Shown here one piece after another: positions 10,905 to 22,046 of a stretch of 27,264 bases of DNA. Below the pieces are notes generated by a model. The model saw nothing but the letters and a program-made list of their open reading frames with translations, was not told the DNA's origin and did no database searches. The DNA is from a virus: positions 1 to 27,264 of IMG/VR virus record IMGVR_UViG_3300022187_000185; one strand, written 5' to 3'. The translations under genes were made by a program, and so were the position numbers. How positions within the stretch are numbered: the stretch's first letter is position 1; every line of letters starts with the position of its first letter.

Positions 10905-11674
10905 TATGATTTGTTTATAAACGCATTCAAAGGGTAGAACACTAAGCTATTTCTGTAGCCACCTTCAAACGTGGGTTCAATAGGCGTTACTCCATGCACA
11001 TTTCTCCAAGCAGGGTAAACCAATATAGAGTTATCGCATTGGTCTATTGTTGCGCCATAGTCGGGCACGTGCAAATTCCCTCCTTTGCTGTTTCTGCGTT
11101 TGGTTATTATGACGTTTACTGTGTTCTTTATATTTCCAGTGTCTCTATGGAAAGGTGCGCTGATGTTGTAATTGCTAATTGATGAGGTGAACAAGTTGCC
11201 GAACTTCCATTCATTAGGCACTCGCTCAAATAGTTCTTTTTGCCTTTCGTATTGTTTTGGCATTATCTCGGCTAAGAGCTTTTCACTTTCCTTTACCAGT
11301 AATAACATAGCCTTGATGAATGTTTGCGCTGACTTGACTTGGTGTACGCTGCTTATAGTTGGATAAGGTCTTCGCATATGGGGCTTAGGTGGTACACTCC
11401 CTATAATAGTACTGAATTGTAGCACCTCACCTTCTTTGCTATGAAGTCCGCTAGAACGCTTCATCTCGCTTTTTGGTACGTTCTTACTCCTCAATTCCTT
11501 ATCTGCAAGATCAGCAAGCTTACAAGCCTTCTCTGGCATCTGTCGCATAAAGAAGCCAATCGGCTCGCCATCTGCGTAAAATATGCAATCTTCCGTTATG
11601 TTAGGTTTTATGCTCCCACAATTATCACCTATTTTAATGCTATGTTTTAATAGTTCAACATCAACTCTTTTCAC
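10904..11674 (-). CDS. TET/JBP-like 2-oxoglutarate/Fe(II) dioxygenase
   Basis: A 256-residue protein whose C-terminal half is a double-stranded beta-helix dioxygenase. It shows the iron ligands His176-x-Asp178 (FHRD), a strand-turn GGNLHVPDYG (198-207), the distal iron ligand His227 (NVHGVTP) and a 2-oxoglutarate-binding Arg241 (YRNSLVFY). This spacing and the GGNL...YG...H...R-S-hydrophobic pattern fit the TET/JBP group, which oxidises the methyl group of 5-methylpyrimidines in DNA. The N-terminal ~150 residues are helical and family-specific. It is translationally coupled to a ParB-like gene upstream (4-base overlap) and to the small terminase downstream. The base it acts on is not shown: the only methyltransferase in the window is an amino-methylase. 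Confidence 0.75.
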   Translation of the reverse strand: MKRVDVELLKHSIKIGDNCGSIKPNITEDCIFYADGEPIGFFMRQMPEKACKLADLADKELRSKNVPKSEMKRSSGLHSKEGEVLQFSTIIGSVPPKPHMRRPYPTISSVHQVKSAQTFIKAMLLLVKESEKLLAEIMPKQYERQKELFERVPNEWKFGNLFTSSISNYNISAPFHRDTGNIKNTVNVIITKRRNSKGGNLHVPDYGATIDQCDNSILVYPAWRNVHGVTPIEPTFEGGYRNSLVFYPLNAFINKS

Positions 11675-12255
11675 AACTTTTCCTTTTCAGCTTTCAGGTA
11701 ATCTAAGAGCATCTTACCAACATAGGCACCTTGCTCCCTCCAAAACTTCACAAGCTCATAAGCCTCTTCGTAATGCTCTTTTTCAAACTCTATTTGAATA
11801 GCCCTTTTCACTCCGTTAGCCATATCGCTAAGCTCACTGTCAACATCTTCATCATCCAATAAAGAATAATCAACCTCCTGCTCTTGCTGCCAAACATCTA
11901 AGCCCCATTCAACAAGCAAATCCGAGTTCCACTCATTCGCAAGCTGATCCCATTCCCATTCTCCGAAGCCGACATTATCCTTGATAGTAAACTCCCTGCG
12001 CTTGTCCTCTGTCCAGTCGTCTGCCATCATTACCCATGTTTCGGGTATTTCCTTCATCCCTAGCTCTTGGATAGCTCTCAGGCGCATATTGCCGCCTAAA
12101 GGGTATAACTTACCATCCACATCAGTAACGCATACCATAGGGCGTTTTTCCATCATCTCAGGAAAGTCTTGTAACGACTTGACGAGCTTCTTGAATTTCT
12201 CGTCTTTTATTACTCTCGGATTAGACGGGTTGGATTTTAGCTTACTGATTTTCAT
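11671..12255 (-). CDS. ParB-like nuclease/CTPase-fold protein
   Basis: A 194-residue protein. The N-terminal ~90 residues show the ParB/Srx fold: LKSNPSNPR at 6-14 and the nucleotide-binding motif as GGNMRLRAIQELG at 54-66, in place of the classical GERRxRA. A Trp- and acid-rich middle (80-140) and a helical Lys/Glu-rich end follow. In phages such ParB-like proteins occur near DNA-modifying enzymes and terminases. The stop overlaps the dioxygenase start by four bases, so the pair are probably made together. No partition partner (ParA) is present, so plasmid-style partition is unlikely. Nuclease, CTP-switch or DNA-binding roles remain open. Confidence 0.75.
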   Translation of the reverse strand: MKISKLKSNPSNPRVIKDEKFKKLVKSLQDFPEMMEKRPMVCVTDVDGKLYPLGGNMRLRAIQELGMKEIPETWVMMADDWTEDKRREFTIKDNVGFGEWEWDQLANEWNSDLLVEWGLDVWQQEQEVDYSLLDDEDVDSELSDMANGVKRAIQIEFEKEHYEEAYELVKFWREQGAYVGKMLLDYLKAEKEKL

Positions 12256-13545: not shown

Positions 13546-15270
13546 TCAAAAAGGTAAATCACCAACGTGACCACCATCGAACAAAGGCTCTTCAGGCTCA
13601 TCAAAAACAGTCTTCTGAGCCTCCGTTACAAAGCTGCCTCCCGTATTCTTTTGTTGTGAGTGCCTAAACCTACCAGAGCCACCCTCCCATTCGAAAGTCG
13701 TAGCTAAACCAACTTGCCCCGACTGATGTCGCATCTTCTTTTTCAATACATGGATGCGACTCAATCCCCCATTTTCAAAATCCCTGTAAACTGTCAAGGC
13801 GTTATGTATCTGGTCGGCAAAGTCACCTGAGTACTTGACGTCGTACAGCCCCGGAACCTCGTAATATTCGCTCTTTTCCTTCTTCCGCATCTTGGTTGGA
13901 TGTGCAACTAGCCATACACTAACTTGGTGTTGTTGACAGAATAAAGCAAGATCAGAAAGAACCCCTGCAATGCTTGATAGGTTGCCAACCTCAACGCCCA
14001 TCTTATTGAACGCATCAATTACGAAATGTTCTGTGCCGTATACTTTAACGTGCTCACTGAACTTCTTCAAAATCCATTCTGCCGTTGGCCTCCCCTCGCC
14101 TTTGTATTCCAAGTGGCGGACATGGTTCTTTAGCCAGTTAATACCCTCAAGTGCTTCCGTCTCCCTCATGTGGCTTGGATATTTTGGATCGGCTGTTTTG
14201 CCCACGACCTTCTCAAGCAAGGTCACTAGGTGATCGCTTGTACTTCCGTGCTCAGGTGTGAAGAATGCGACTTTGTGATCATTATGAAGGCACATATTCA
14301 AAATGTACCATTCAAGCCAATTCGACTTACCATGCCCGGGAATTCCAGTTATCAAATTGAACTGTCCCGGCAGCGTGTTAAAAAAGTCGTCCATCCCTTC
14401 AATTCCACTCATCAAAGGCTTGCGCGGACCAGTCTTGATATAGTGTAAAATATCGCTCTGATAATCCTCAGCCGTTACACTTCCCTCTATCGGGTAGTCA
14501 GATGCCTTGCCTACGCTTTTGAGCAGATAACCGCCTTGCAAATCTTCGTTTGCATCCTTTCCGATAAAATTAACTCGCTTGCAATTATGCCGCCCAAACC
14601 TCTTTAGTAGCTCATGTTCGAGGTCCTTTCCCTTCTCGTCCATGTCCACCGCAATAATCCAATTCTTGATGTGAGAAACATCGCAGTTTTCAAATACTTC
14701 AGTAAGGTCGTTCGCTCCATTCGGTACACTGATGCAATTCTTGATACCAACCTGCCACATTGATAGCTTGTCCATTTCGCCCTCGACTATGTAAGCTGTG
14801 TCTTCTGTGAGGTCATCAATGCCGTAGAATACTTTTCTCGCTCCCTTTATCTGCGTGAATTTCTTATCTGCTGATCGGTACTTTTTATTTACTAGCTGCC
14901 CTTTATAGAAGTAGTTGAAGCTAACGCAATTCATTTCACGTTGGTGAGCAGGAATGTATGCTCGCTCCTCAGATATTTTACAATCCTGCAGTGTTTTCTG
15001 ATAGATGCCCCGACCTTCAAACCATTTCACAAACTTATCGCTCAGGCTTGTGTGATTCTCCCAACCTTGAGGTGGTAAGCTGTATTCTTTGTACGGCTCA
15101 CGGCTTCCAGACCTTCCGCAATGGTGGCAATGTGCTAAGCCTTTATCATGATTCACCGCAAGGTCTTTCATGTTTTGCTTCTTTCGCTCATGTGAGCAGT
15201 AAGGGCAAACTATTCTTTCCTCTCCTGATGACCTCCGAAAGTTGAGATCTTTCCAAATTATACCGCTCAT
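13546..15270 (-). CDS. Primase-helicase (T7 gp4 / Twinkle type)
   Basis: At 574 residues with three modules, this is the main replicative enzyme. A zinc ribbon (Cys22, Cys25, Cys48, Cys51) recognises the priming template. A TOPRIM primase core has IVEGEMDK (Glu163/Glu165) and VDMDEKG (Asp209/Asp211). A RecA-fold helicase has Walker A GIPGHGKS (309-316) and a Walker B-like FVIDAFN. It synthesises RNA primers and unwinds the fork as a ring. The start overlaps the stop of the DUF6291 initiator gene by four bases, so initiator and helicase are co-translated. The length is normal for the family, and all key residues I looked for are present. No phage DNA polymerase is visible in the window. Confidence 0.9.
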   Translation of the reverse strand: MSGIIWKDLNFRRSSGEERIVCPYCSHERKKQNMKDLAVNHDKGLAHCHHCGRSGSREPYKEYSLPPQGWENHTSLSDKFVKWFEGRGIYQKTLQDCKISEERAYIPAHQREMNCVSFNYFYKGQLVNKKYRSADKKFTQIKGARKVFYGIDDLTEDTAYIVEGEMDKLSMWQVGIKNCISVPNGANDLTEVFENCDVSHIKNWIIAVDMDEKGKDLEHELLKRFGRHNCKRVNFIGKDANEDLQGGYLLKSVGKASDYPIEGSVTAEDYQSDILHYIKTGPRKPLMSGIEGMDDFFNTLPGQFNLITGIPGHGKSNWLEWYILNMCLHNDHKVAFFTPEHGSTSDHLVTLLEKVVGKTADPKYPSHMRETEALEGINWLKNHVRHLEYKGEGRPTAEWILKKFSEHVKVYGTEHFVIDAFNKMGVEVGNLSSIAGVLSDLALFCQQHQVSVWLVAHPTKMRKKEKSEYYEVPGLYDVKYSGDFADQIHNALTVYRDFENGGLSRIHVLKKKMRHQSGQVGLATTFEWEGGSGRFRHSQQKNTGGSFVTEAQKTVFDEPEEPLFDGGHVGDLPF

Positions 15271-16025
15271 AGCCCTCCAAAATTAATCTTTGGTGGATTG
15301 TAGTAGTCACTCCTGTGTGTGCGCATCCTTTTCCAATCTTCTTTGGCCTGCTTACGTGAAAAGCCCCATTTGTTAATCATTTCGTCTAGCCAATCTTTGG
15401 GAGGGTTTTCTTTGCAATGCTCGGAATCTACATCGAAAGTCGCTTTCGGACATTCTTTGAACCAAGATAGGTTGGTCATTTTGTTTTTCCAATTCACCAC
15501 CTTTTTCCCCATCTTATCCGTCCACCCTCTTTCCTCGTAGTAGTTCCAAGCGTTTTCGCAGTCGATATGATTTTCGTCCCTTCCTTTTAGCCTCCAGTAT
15601 TGCTGCCACTCTTCAAAACTTGGGCCTCCCCCAGTAGAGGAAGGAAGTTTACTTCCTTCTCCAGTAACACTATCACTTACAGTAACACTATCACTTACAC
15701 TTACGGCTTTTTTCGCTTCAAGTGGGTTTTCTAAATAACCCACTGGGTTTTTTGGGTTTTCTTCGGTTTTCTTTGGTCTGCCTCCCTTCTTCCCGTTTTC
15801 CCTATTCCTTTCCTTTTGCTCCTCGTATTTGTCCAGATCGCGCTTCAAAGTTGTTTTAATCGGAATAAAGGCTATCTGAGTTAACTTATCTGGAACTTCA
15901 GGATTCATGTCATTAACATACCTAAAAAGGTGTTTAATGAGCTTTCCTGCCTCTTCATCGCTCAGCTCGTCAAATGTGTTTATCCAATCACAGTAAGCTA
16001 CAAAACTCTTTTTTCCTTCTGCCAT
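15267..16025 (-). CDS. DUF6291-type replication initiator / replisome organizer
   Basis: A 252-residue protein. The N-terminus (FVAYCDWINTFDELSDEEAGKLIKHLF... to KYEEQKERNRENGKKGG) fits DUF6291, found at the start of Bacteroidota phage replication proteins. The C-terminal part has AWNYYEERGW followed by GKKVVNWKNKM, a motif typical of replisome organizers next to a helicase. A low-complexity Ser/Val/Asp linker joins them; it is encoded by tandem 18-bp repeats (15663-15698). I chose ATG 16025 rather than the upstream TTG at 16034, which sits in the terminator-like leader. Gene order (initiator, then primase-helicase) and the internal repeats both support an origin-binding role, as with lambda O. 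Confidence 0.7.
   Translation of the reverse strand: MAEGKKSFVAYCDWINTFDELSDEEAGKLIKHLFRYVNDMNPEVPDKLTQIAFIPIKTTLKRDLDKYEEQKERNRENGKKGGRPKKTEENPKNPVGYLENPLEAKKAVSVSDSVTVSDSVTGEGSKLPSSTGGGPSFEEWQQYWRLKGRDENHIDCENAWNYYEERGWTDKMGKKVVNWKNKMTNLSWFKECPKATFDVDSEHCKENPPKDWLDEMINKWGFSRKQAKEDWKRMRTHRSDYYNPPKINFGGL
15663..15744. repeat. Tandem repeats plus palindrome: candidate replication origin
   Basis: Two perfect 18-bp copies of AGTAACACTATCACTTAC lie head to tail (15663-15680 and 15681-15698), with a six-base partial third copy (ACTTAC, 15699-15704). Sixteen bases further on, AGTGGGTT (15721-15728) and AACCCACT (15737-15744) form a perfect 8-bp inverted repeat around an AT-rich loop, followed by a T-rich, strand-asymmetric tract to about 15790. 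All of this is inside the linker of the DUF6291 gene, the place where lambdoid phages keep their iterons. Confidence 0.5.
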
Positions 16026-16149: not shown

Positions 16150-16356
16150 TTATAAAAAGAGAGCCTCTATCTTTTGATTAATTATAAAATCATTGAGCCC
16201 ACTCTGTTGGTGACAGTACTGGACTAAACACAGGCTCTCCCAGTACGCAAACCCTGCCGCCTGTATCCTGTCTATCAAATCGCTGAACTGCTCTGAGCTA
16301 TACTCATCTGCCTCGCCTGATCTGATCAAATCCCTGATGTTGTCGCGCTCAATCAT
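16150..16356 (-). CDS. Small hypothetical protein, 68 aa
   Basis: An acidic, helical protein (SSEQFSDLIDRIQAAGFAYWESLCLVQYCHQ) with two Cys and no recognised domain. It overlaps the methyltransferase stop by four bases (ATGA), so it is made with the methyltransferase and may assist or modulate it. It ends just before the replication promoter. Confidence 0.55.
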   Translation of the reverse strand: MIERDNIRDLIRSGEADEYSSEQFSDLIDRIQAAGFAYWESLCLVQYCHQQSGLNDFIINQKIEALFL

Positions 16357-17363
16357 AGCAACGAAAGCTGATCTTCATTTGTGAATCTATCACCTACCAA
16401 CTTCATGTTAGCTATCATTTGCTTAAAGTAGCTATCCTTCAACTCTATTCCGATAGCCTTTCTACCTAATGAAACAGGGCTAAAAACTTCTGAACCAACG
16501 CCTGCAAAAGGAGTAAGTACAACCTCGTTAGGATTTGAGTACAACTCTACAATTCGATCAATAACATCTAATTGCAAAGGGTGAACGTGCTTTTCATCAT
16601 CTTCATCTTTACCATCTCGGAAAGGTAAAACGTTATCAATCCTAACATCATCCCAAACAGAAGATGCGTAACGCTGCCAAATGTAGTGTGATAGCTTATT
16701 TGATTTTGGGTCCTTCCATCCTTTGTACTTAGAGTTTAAATAATCCCATAATTGAGACTCGTTTAAGCTGCTTTTAGTAGCATTATTCCAAGCCTTCAAT
16801 ATATTGGGTAGAATAGGTGTTTCACCAAAATACCTAGTCAATCCATGCTCATGAGTTACAGGCACTTCATTTTCCCCTTCCTTAGTGAATATCAAAACAT
16901 AGTCGGGCATAGCTGTAAAGCACTTAGTACTATCTTCTACGATAAACTTGTGCATTAAGCTTTGAACCATTGTTCTCATGCGAACTTTTAACGGCTCTTT
17001 CCAAATAGTTATACGATTGCGATACTCAAAACCATGCTTTTCGTGTAGTCTGATTATCTCATGAGGGAAGTCCCAAAGCCTACTAGTATTATCAAATACA
17101 TCAGTACAGTGAACGGCATTTACTCTGCCTGGCTTTGTTACTCGTGCCATTTCCTTTATTAGAAAATCGTACTGATCTAAAAACTGCTCTTTTGTTTCGC
17201 AGTTAGAGAAATCATTTTCAGAGCTTGAATAATTGTAAAGCCCTGCAAATGGAGGTGAATAAACAGAAAGGTCTACACTGTTAGACTCAATCTCTGGTAA
17301 AACGTACATACAATCTGAGTTATAGATTGAGTAGTTTTCTTCGTGGATTTGTTCTTTTGTCAT
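16353..17363 (-). CDS. Amino-methyltransferase for DNA (N6-adenine or N4-cytosine), beta-class order
   Basis: A 336-residue enzyme. The catalytic motif IV reads SPPF at residues 36-39. The AdoMet-binding motif I is at the C-terminal side (TPFAGVGSEVF near 284-294, followed by GIELKDSYF). IV-before-I is the order of beta-class N4/N6 methyltransferases. The middle (100-260) is the target-recognition region. SPP(Y/F) is more usual in N4-cytosine enzymes, but the substrate cannot be fixed from this alone. The ATG follows an ACCAAAG leader. It is preceded by a 30-codon leader ORF and module copy 3, and by a SNF2-like helicase gene read in the same direction. It may protect phage DNA from host restriction. 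Confidence 0.85.
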   Translation of the reverse strand: MTKEQIHEENYSIYNSDCMYVLPEIESNSVDLSVYSPPFAGLYNYSSSENDFSNCETKEQFLDQYDFLIKEMARVTKPGRVNAVHCTDVFDNTSRLWDFPHEIIRLHEKHGFEYRNRITIWKEPLKVRMRTMVQSLMHKFIVEDSTKCFTAMPDYVLIFTKEGENEVPVTHEHGLTRYFGETPILPNILKAWNNATKSSLNESQLWDYLNSKYKGWKDPKSNKLSHYIWQRYASSVWDDVRIDNVLPFRDGKDEDDEKHVHPLQLDVIDRIVELYSNPNEVVLTPFAGVGSEVFSPVSLGRKAIGIELKDSYFKQMIANMKLVGDRFTNEDQLSLL

Positions 17364-17399
17364 TTGAGCTTTGGTTTTTATCTATTGTTTTGTAGTGAT

Positions 17400-17492
17400 C
17401 TATTTATTTAGATCTTGTTTAGTTACTAATTGAACTGAAATACCTTTTGATTTTAGTTCCTTGTAGTGCTTAAGTGATGTTGTGCGTATCAT
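17400..17492 (-). CDS. 30-aa leader ORF ahead of the methyltransferase
   Basis: ATG 17492 to TAG 17400 encodes a 30-residue basic peptide (MIRTTSLKHYKELKSKGISV, then ten more residues ending DLNK). It sits directly behind promoter module copy 3, at the position where the other three copies have their real gene start. The methyltransferase ATG follows 36 bases after its stop. It may be a genuine small protein or a leader peptide controlling the methyltransferase. Confidence 0.5.
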   Translation of the reverse strand: MIRTTSLKHYKELKSKGISVQLVTKQDLNK

Positions 17493-17543
17493 GTTTGCTT
17501 TGTTTGATAGGTCAAATATAAGACAAATATTTTAACTACACAA
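17493..17543 (-). promoter_or_regulatory. Repeated promoter-leader module, copy 3
   Basis: On the minus strand TTG (17543-17541), 20 bases, then TATATTTG (17520-17513). The -33 side reads TTGTGTAGTTAAAATAT and the leader ACCTATCAAACAAAGCAA before ATG 17492. It is almost the same as copies 1 and 4. It would drive the leader ORF, the methyltransferase and the 68-aa gene independently of the helicase upstream. Confidence 0.78.
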
Positions 17544-17557
17544 AACATTATTGTGAA

Positions 17558-18925
17558 TTAAATAAACTTTGGTTTTTGTGTTTGTTGTAAGAACTCTTTT
17601 TTTGTGCTAGTGAATTTTCTATTCACGTTTTCGGTTAGTTGTTTATGCAGATCAATTGCCTTTTGCGTTTTCTGTTGCAACGCTTCTAAAACCCTTGTTT
17701 GACCATCTGAAATAACCATGTCAATCGTTACAGGCTTAGTCTGACCAAACCTCCAAAACCGCCTTACAGCTTGGTAGTATTGCTCGTAGGACCATGTAGG
17801 GAAGAATACAGAGTGATTGCAATGCTGCCAATTTAAACCCATTCCAGTCATCTTTGCTTTAGTTATGAGTCGCTTTATTTCTTCGTTAGCAAAGGCTTGT
17901 AAAATTTCCTCTTTCTTGTCAATGGATTGGCTGCCTATTATTTCAACTGCTTCTGAATCCAATCCTTTAAGAATTGCACTTTCATTATTGGTATTACACC
18001 AATATACGGATGTTTTGCCATCGGCTAACTCGATAGCTTTTTCGCACCTTTCTTGTTGTGTTTGTTTCTGTTCGTGCCTTATCTCATGAAAACTTTTAGC
18101 TACGATATTAAAAAGCTGAACTTGACCGTCGACATTGATAGTTGATTTGTTTTTTACCACGTGCTTATTAACTATCAACTCAGGCAACTTATAACGATCA
18201 TCAGAAAACCCTAGGTCACTAGGCATCTTTGCCATTATTGACCATTGATTAACCCATGCAAAGAAATCCTTTTCAGCGTGTGGCTTTAGGTAGAACTTTT
18301 CCCCGATGTTTCTATTATTACTATCAACACTGTTTTGATTGTTCTTAAAGAACTTTGTCAGCATATCCATGTAGCCCAAATAACCTAATGCCTCACTACT
18401 TGTACCAAGTTCTATAAAATCGTTAGGACTAGGCGTTGCAGTACTTAAGAATCGGTAAGGGATCTTCTTAATAAAAGCTGTTATCTGACTTTTTATCTTA
18501 CCATCAAAGTTCTTTAGAATTGAACTTTCATCAAGTATCACACACTCAAAATCTGAATGATCGAAGTAGTGTAATCTTTCATAATTGCAAACAACTATCT
18601 TCTTTGTATGCCTACCATCCTTTGAATACTCCACATCGCCAACTCCTATCTTTTCAGCCTCTATAATGAATTGAAACGCAACAGCCAAAGGAGTTAATAT
18701 CAATACCTTTTTATTGGTGTGATTAACGATGTTTTGAGCAATGGATAACTGAACCAAAGTCTTGCCAAGTCCAGTGTCAAGGAATACAGCTACTCGACCT
18801 TTTGCCACAGCTCGCTCAATAACGTGCCTTTGAAAGTCAAATGCTATGTCGGGTATAAAATTCGCCTCAAATCCAAACTCACCTACTGAATGTCGTTTGC
18901 TTTGTAAAAACTCTTCGTACTTCAT
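17558..18925 (-). CDS. SNF2-like DEAD/DEAH superfamily 2 helicase
   Basis: A 455-residue ATPase with the superfamily 2 motifs: motif I TGLGKT at 51-56, motif II DESS at 132-135 (the variant common in phage SNF2-like helicases), motif III STATPSPND at 161-169, and motif VI QAVRRFWRFGQT near residue 390. It remodels or translocates on DNA using ATP. No nuclease or methyltransferase domain is fused to it. It overlaps the upstream membrane-protein gene by four bases and is followed 65 bases later by the methyltransferase unit. The pairing helicase plus amino-methylase recurs in phages and mobile elements. Whether it serves modification, replication or defence is unknown. Confidence 0.85.
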   Translation of the reverse strand: MKYEEFLQSKRHSVGEFGFEANFIPDIAFDFQRHVIERAVAKGRVAVFLDTGLGKTLVQLSIAQNIVNHTNKKVLILTPLAVAFQFIIEAEKIGVGDVEYSKDGRHTKKIVVCNYERLHYFDHSDFECVILDESSILKNFDGKIKSQITAFIKKIPYRFLSTATPSPNDFIELGTSSEALGYLGYMDMLTKFFKNNQNSVDSNNRNIGEKFYLKPHAEKDFFAWVNQWSIMAKMPSDLGFSDDRYKLPELIVNKHVVKNKSTINVDGQVQLFNIVAKSFHEIRHEQKQTQQERCEKAIELADGKTSVYWCNTNNESAILKGLDSEAVEIIGSQSIDKKEEILQAFANEEIKRLITKAKMTGMGLNWQHCNHSVFFPTWSYEQYYQAVRRFWRFGQTKPVTIDMVISDGQTRVLEALQQKTQKAIDLHKQLTENVNRKFTSTKKEFLQQTQKPKFI

Positions 18926-21117: not shown

Positions 21118-21531
21118 ATGAAAGAGAAGATAGAAGAAGCCGTTGCCAACTGCACTGAAGCTGTTGAAGGCGGTCACATGGATGCACTGAAAGCATTCAT
21201 CGAATTGAAAGCAAGTGCAAAGCTTATGGCAGAAGCACTAAAGCAAATTGAAGAGCTTGCTATTGACGAGCTGCGTAACTATCCAAAGGGAAAAGCTGAG
21301 ATGCTCGGAGCTGTTGCCGAGATTAGAAACACGGCAGGCAGGTATTCATTCAAGCACGTTGACGAATGGAACAATGCAAAAGCTATTATTAGCCAAGTTG
21401 AAGCAGATGCAAAGGAAGCTTTTAAGCTACGATTGAAAGGGCAGACGTTGTATGATGCCGATGGTGTGGAGATAACGCCTGCAGACTTCACAGATGGGAA
21501 AGAAACTGTATTTGTAACAATACCGAAATGA
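21118..21531 (+). CDS. Hypothetical protein of the recombination operon, 137 aa
   Basis: An Ala/Glu/Lys-rich helical N-terminal half (to about residue 70) is followed by a segment with GRYSFKHVDEWNNAK and a beta-rich end. I recognise no domain. The start is placed at ATG 21118 rather than GTG 21115, since an ACCAAAG leader ends just before the ATG. The stop overlaps the next start (ATGA at 21528-21531). Confidence 0.6.
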   Translation: MKEKIEEAVANCTEAVEGGHMDALKAFIELKASAKLMAEALKQIEELAIDELRNYPKGKAEMLGAVAEIRNTAGRYSFKHVDEWNNAKAIISQVEADAKEAFKLRLKGQTLYDADGVEITPADFTDGKETVFVTIPK

Positions 21532-22046
21532 GCAATAAAGTAATGAAGATAGTCGCTCAGGCGGCAAGTGAAGTGCAAAAAACACTAATCACAACGGACC
21601 ACATAAAAAGCCACTCTAGGAAGATGGAAATAGTACGAGCTAGGCAGTTTTATCACTATGTCATGCGGAAGTATACCAAGCTCACATTAGACACTATTGC
21701 GAGGGAAACGAGGAACGACCACGCGACAGTACTTCATAGCTTAAGAGTAATTGATAAAGCTGTCGGCTTTGAAAGGCGAATCTTTGACAGGATTTACAAT
21801 GTGGCATTTCCTCAGCTTTCAGGAATATTAGAAATGGAAGACTTTCAACTCGAGCTTGAAAAGGCAATGCAGCAAAAAGGACTGGACGAAGCAAAAAAGA
21901 TGATGGATCAAAATCTTCAGCGCGAAGTGGGAAAGGAAAGAGAGCGGACCAACAAGGTTAAAAGCATGGTATTTGAATATTTGCGAAGTCAAAAGGTGCA
22001 GGGCTATTTGATTGCGGGTTTGACTAAAGAGCTTGAAGAGGTTTGA
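21528..22046 (+). CDS. DnaA-domain-IV-like DNA-binding protein, 172 aa
   Basis: Residues about 28-78 form a DnaA C-terminal (domain IV) helix-turn-helix: RKMEIVRARQFYHYVMRKYT, then LTLDTIARETRNDHATVLHS and an IDKAV helix. NDHATVLHS corresponds to the conserved G-R-D-H-T-T-V-L-H signature that contacts the DnaA box. The AAA+ ATPase domain of DnaA is absent; residues 100-172 are a charged coiled-coil-like region. It therefore probably binds DnaA-type sites without ATP control. The stop overlaps the TTG start of the NinG gene (TTGA). Confidence 0.75.
   Translation: MSNKVMKIVAQAASEVQKTLITTDHIKSHSRKMEIVRARQFYHYVMRKYTKLTLDTIARETRNDHATVLHSLRVIDKAVGFERRIFDRIYNVAFPQLSGILEMEDFQLELEKAMQQKGLDEAKKMMDQNLQREVGKERERTNKVKSMVFEYLRSQKVQGYLIAGLTKELEEV

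Follow-up and report, generated by a model that had tools for sequence, protein, structure and literature searches.

Can the gene of a phage initiator hold, between the codons of its two halves, the origin at which that initiator acts? The question is raised by a gene of the DUF6291 family in a virus record from IMG/VR, which was analysed whole; this window of 27,264 bp is possibly part of a phage genome, and no end repeats were detected in it. A sequence-only reading had placed a candidate replication origin within the linker-coding part of the gene. We find an origin inside the initiator gene to be well supported, but some of its parts had been misassigned: the likely iterons are AACCCA half-sites, which lie in what had been read as a palindrome and a T-rich tract, and not the 18-bp repeats upstream of the C-terminal codons. 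In our judgement the gene very probably contains a lambda-O-like replication origin of its own, with half-sites bound through the segment NRENGKKGGRPKK of the encoded protein, where both the binding and the firing are what we infer.

The gene (15267 to 16025, minus strand) encodes a protein of 252 amino acids, laid out as a DUF6291 domain (residues 7 to 85), a linker and a helical C-terminal part. The domain, encoded at 15771 to 16007 on the minus strand, matches Pfam PF19808 with an E value of 7e-30 and a score of 103.4 bits, against a curated cut-off of 27.2. In an AlphaFold2 model the pLDDT is mostly above 90 over residues 10 to 70 and a long helix spans residues 47 to 79; confidence is restricted to these N-terminal helices, while the linker scores low and is modelled as disordered. 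No solved relative was found in the PDB by sequence or by fold, a comparison that a weak fold match could escape, and a literature search found no described function for DUF6291 or for the DUF1376 tail. The family search found DUF6291 in only 4 of 395 Bacteroidota genomes. The C-terminal domain (approximately residues 134 to 252; 15270 to 15626, minus strand) is the part that is retained where the N-terminal half and the array have been exchanged. The end of the gene is overlapped by a gene for a primase/helicase with TOPRIM and RecA-like parts (13546 to 15270, minus strand), and primase/helicase, helicase or loader genes adjoin the DUF6291 gene in many relatives. Upstream of the initiator, 16353 to 18925 encodes a DNA N6/N4-methyltransferase beside a SNF2/DEAD-type helicase. 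The product of 21528 to 22046 carries the C-terminal DNA-binding domain of DnaA (Pfam Bac_DnaA_C), but no AAA+ part was found in it. A gene annotated as DnaA-like likewise lies close to the DUF6291 gene in the Cellulophaga phages phi13:2 and phi19:3.

Read in the direction of the gene, the codons of NRENGKKGGRPKK are followed by the half-site array, then by a hexamer tract that includes the 18-bp repeat, then by a hairpin and finally by the C-terminal domain. The segment comprises residues 74 to 86 (15768 to 15806, minus strand), is basic, and is proposed as the recognition segment on the evidence that segment type tracks motif type and that the segment also occurs behind a DUF1376 domain. Directly behind its codons lies the proposed iteron array (15721 to 15770), with AACCCA/TGGGTT half-sites at 15723, 15737, 15744 and 15753 and a degenerate GGTTTT at 15765. 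The core site is the palindrome AACCCAcTGGGTT at 15737 to 15749, the sole match in the window with fewer than two mismatches; a blind scan of viral contigs supports it as well. It is 13 bp long with a free centre, and the perfect 8-bp palindrome described earlier is absent. As for the T-rich tract, its strand asymmetry is real, with T strongly favoured on the plus strand (AT skew of -0.68 to -0.75 across 15700 to 15849), but the tract itself is an array of TGGGTT repeats. TGGGTT/AACCCA occurs four times in the 91 bp from 15700 to 15790, where the remainder of the window predicts 0.05 (p ~3e-7), and with the protein held fixed the four copies in the window gene compare with 0.74 in synonymous recodings (p <= 0.001).

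The two exact 18-bp tandem copies of CAGTAACACTATCACTTA that had been taken as iterons are present at 15662 to 15679 and 15680 to 15697, and Tandem Repeats Finder (TRF) scores them as the top array of the window (15662 to 15699, 2.1 copies, 100% match, score 76). We rejected them as iterons because they are not conserved as a unit, the relatives L002 and L005 having a different unit, GTAACTGTAACTGATACT, at that place, and because the stretch behaves as a hexamer tract, of which the direct repeats (15662 to 15697) are part. Family-wide, their position is taken by a hexamer tract of variable sequence. In the window this tract (15663 to 15704, minus strand) is built of GTAAGT/GATAGT units, is poor in C and has 33% GC; it is our candidate for an easily opened tract beside the sites and is proposed as the unwinding region, a proposal drawn from codon choice in the family and from non-coding counterparts. 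In the hexamer tracts of the family the Ser codon AGT makes up 85%, against 16% elsewhere in the same genes, with corresponding values of 95% against 61% for the Asp codon GAT, 95% against 54% for the Asn codon AAT, and 6% against 18% for C content. Slippage could partly account for this codon bias.

Directly past the hexamer tract lies a feature that the earlier reading did not contain, an inverted repeat with 9-bp arms (GAAGGAAGT-TA-ACTTCCTTC on the plus strand, 15640 to 15659). Across 38 genes, hairpins in this position exceed in strength both those of synonymous recodings (Wilcoxon p 1e-7) and those elsewhere in the genes (p 4e-6), but only five of the 38, including that of the window (p 0.03), are individually significant. 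An entry point for helicase or primase would be a guess at the role of the hairpin. The folding energy of the single strand is ordinary (z -0.14), and searches found no RNA families or tRNAs.

Repeat conservation among related phages at the level of DNA rather than protein had been put forward as a check, and it holds for the AACCCA half-sites in the linker of relatives, beyond what synonymous recodings produce. In a blind scan, IMG/VR viral contigs were searched for AAAACCCAnTGGGTT as DNA only; at least 120 stretches match, and the matches listed contain 93 distinct sites. Among these listed matches, 43 of the 93 sites lie in an open frame no more than 40 codons behind a segment of the N-G-x-x-GG-R type, the figure for positions drawn at random from these contigs being 0.7%; in these 43 the palindrome is read as KPxG (22 sites), NPxG (19) or TxWV (2), and all three reading frames are used. 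Starting instead from 55 distinct segment-bearing genes found by protein or peptide, we counted AACCCA/TGGGTT 117 times in the next 45 codons, compared with 21.7 +/- 4.1 in synonymous recodings drawn from each gene's own codon usage, the highest count in 1000 being 37; permuted words stay at the null level. Approximately one third of the 55 genes are without a half-site, and many of those are not initiators. A de novo mixed-frame repeat statistic, which has low power per gene and is not significant for the window alone, gave Fisher combined p values of 7e-7 (k=5) and 3e-5 (k=6) over 51 genes. Repeated sites that are conserved as DNA are found inside the initiator gene, between its DNA-binding and C-terminal halves, and the motif, the tract and the hairpin are all constrained as DNA beyond the needs of the protein.

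Five types of segment or N-terminus go with five motifs (AACCCA, TCGCA, CGTATA, GGCAAA/AGCAAA and AAAGCA), and each motif is enriched only behind its own type, four of the five types being represented by small numbers (2 to 8 genes). The motifs were read from the same loci, and for this reason the correspondence is descriptive, save for the blind palindrome scan. The segment NRENGKKGGRPKK probably recognises the DNA site directly behind its codons. In the relative L026 the segment stands behind a DUF1376 domain and goes with AACCCA-type sites; Pfam places DUF1376 at residues 2 to 87 and DUF6291 profile positions 52 to 78 at residues 80 to 106, the latter match reaching 24.8 bits, just under the family cut-off of 27.2. 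An exception is L007, in which GGRPKK goes with AAGCAAA, so GGRP is an imperfect predictor. The segment ENGKKGGRP is also seen at the extreme C-terminus of short proteins that are not initiator-like and have no AACCCA array (L175, L177, L209, L215, L216, L225 and L229).

The exchange of parts between relatives follows the same lines. L003 and L004 have the C-terminal domain of the window protein (95%) and the same start of the primase gene, but an unrelated N-terminus, which gave no match in Pfam or NCBIfam. Their array consists of AAAGCA spaced 11-12 bp apart, with pairs at approximately 23 bp or two helical turns, and runs through three reading frames; this N-terminus and its array are also joined to other C-termini. 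L002 and L005 (C-terminus 82%) go with AAGCAAA sites, and L002, whose sequence extends as far as the N-terminal domain, carries a different recognition segment. The N-terminal half and the array can be replaced as one, leaving the C-terminal half and the primase in place. Absence of the repeats from relatives with the same initiator had been named as grounds for abandoning the origin; it does not count against it, because relatives that lack this array also differ in their N-terminal domain or recognition segment and carry an array of another kind. L003, L004 and L267-L281 can be regarded as a second initiator family, with the N-terminus MNGYDLSR..., an AAAGCA array and several different C-termini.

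The same arrangement, with matched pairs of segment and DNA motif, recurs in phages and prophages whose bacterial hosts differ widely. A wider proposal, to which we give slightly less than an even chance, is that a short exchangeable segment (NRENGKKGGRPK and variants), which can follow N-terminal domains as unrelated as DUF6291 and DUF1376, serves as a recognition code, and that the codons immediately after it spell out its cognate sites. Segment and sites would then form a single initiator-plus-origin cassette, shared among phages of Bacteroidota, of Bacillota and of Pseudomonadota and also occurring as solitary modules linked to DnaA boxes in Clostridia chromosomes.

In several Clostridia genomes (L017, L287-L291 and L306) the DUF6291 gene has its stop immediately behind the segment, and the motif and a GATA/AAAGA tract follow all the same, now as non-coding DNA. 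A comparison of L289-L291 shows a one-base difference in spacing, and therefore the reading frame is not kept. These solitary copies may be remnants; their agreement in DNA, and not in frame, speaks for a function of the DNA. Exact DnaA boxes (TTTTCCACA) are clustered in L289-L291 from approximately 135 bp after the stop codon onwards, L306 resembles these loci when its sequence is read, L017 has one exact box, and L287 and L288 have none. The 27,264-bp window contains no exact DnaA box, coding DUF6291 loci show no excess of them, and the arrangement of a DnaA-dependent origin, with boxes beside an unwinding tract, is not seen at the window. According to their flanking open reading frames, the DUF6291-only genes of L287-L291 and L306 lie in the chromosomes beside differing housekeeping genes (for example ftsZ and argD in L290, ispG in L289); origin modules that are mobile or have been domesticated would be one possible explanation for them.

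The main rival to an embedded origin is an operator, in which the DUF6291 protein would regulate early-operon transcription by binding within the gene that encodes it, while the origin lay elsewhere. A palindromic site beside the gene of its presumed binder suits autoregulation, as do solitary DUF6291 genes without other phage genes within 3 kb; however, the array is situated over 250 bp into the gene, has the C-poor tract and the hairpin behind it, is located in replication modules and, in solitary relatives, is succeeded by DnaA boxes. We consider this rival improbable, and an operator role is in any case compatible with an origin role, the two not being exclusive. Partition systems also use half-site arrays, and 11671 to 12255 encodes a weak ParB_N-like domain that falls short of the Pfam cut-off, two points that would suit a partition, packaging or recombination site in place of an origin; yet the array follows the DUF6291 protein's own recognition segment beside primase/helicase genes, and partition or packaging leaves the match of segment and motif unexplained, which makes such a site very unlikely. 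That the repeats merely reflect a low-complexity linker and slippage, in DNA with no function of its own, agrees with the disorder of the modelled linker and with the dipeptide repeats encoded by the hexamer tract, but the motif excess over synonymous recodings, the use of three frames and both strands, and the retention of motif and tract in non-coding DNA where the spacing varies by one base make it the least credible reading of all.

For an origin embedded in the initiator gene we propose the following mechanism. The N-terminal domain would bind the AACCCA half-sites through NRENGKKGGRPKK, as a dimer or higher oligomer, at sites that sit in the coding DNA directly behind the segment's own codons. 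Assembly of the initiator would open the C-poor, hexamer-repeated tract next to the array, with the hairpin coming after the tract, and the C-terminal domain would recruit the adjacent primase/helicase or its loader. That replication starts here we infer from the architecture, the neighbouring genes and the DnaA boxes in solitary relatives. Cumulative GC skew, suggested earlier as a further check, reaches its minimum at approximately 19.5-20 kb, where gene direction switches, and is uninformative for the origin. We rejected it as an origin marker, since it is confounded by gene direction; at 4-fold sites the contrast has the expected sign but is weak (+0.08 on the left compared with -0.11 on the right). 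If the proposal is right, the sequences of many phages and prophages would reveal their origins and initiators, the segment-motif matches would provide natural data from which to work out a protein-DNA recognition code, and the exchange of origins would be visible as a unit of phage mosaicism.

The embedded-origin architecture is already known from lambda O and from pSK41 Rep, and by the tests run here the DUF6291 family appears unrelated to either. A more limited resemblance is to the DnaD recognition element of Bacillus subtilis oriC, a TnnT single-strand motif (PMC10201434). The tracts coding for Asp, Ser and Asn (GATAGT, GATAAT) have T at every third base of the coding strand and therefore contain TnnT, but the AAAGAT and GTAAAT tract types do not fit, so this is a resemblance only, and the search of the window protein gave no DnaD domain. 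In the RepA_N plasmid initiator pSK41 Rep the Rep boxes are central in the rep gene, and in pPR9 the N-terminal half and the origin have been exchanged (PMC5703833). The DUF6291 system is similar in having boxes inside the initiator gene and in the joint exchange of N-terminal half and origin while the C-terminal half stays. It differs in that RepA_N uses a winged helix-turn-helix, which was not detected in the window protein; there was no Pfam match to RepA_N (PF06970), and no PDB match by sequence or fold, where a weak fold match could escape. The closest parallel in layout is ori-lambda, with iterons and an AT-rich tract within gene O (PMC7466680, PMC6022878), although Pfam, NCBIfam and PHROGs gave no homology of the window protein to the lambda O family. 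Both systems have iterons and a tract that is, or for DUF6291 would be, easily opened in the middle of the gene, an N-terminal half that binds DNA (putatively so here), a C-terminal half for a partner, and the gene of that partner adjacent. The iteron sequence, the recognition segment and the domain all differ from those of lambda O, and it is the DUF6291 system that has a portable segment with several matched motifs.
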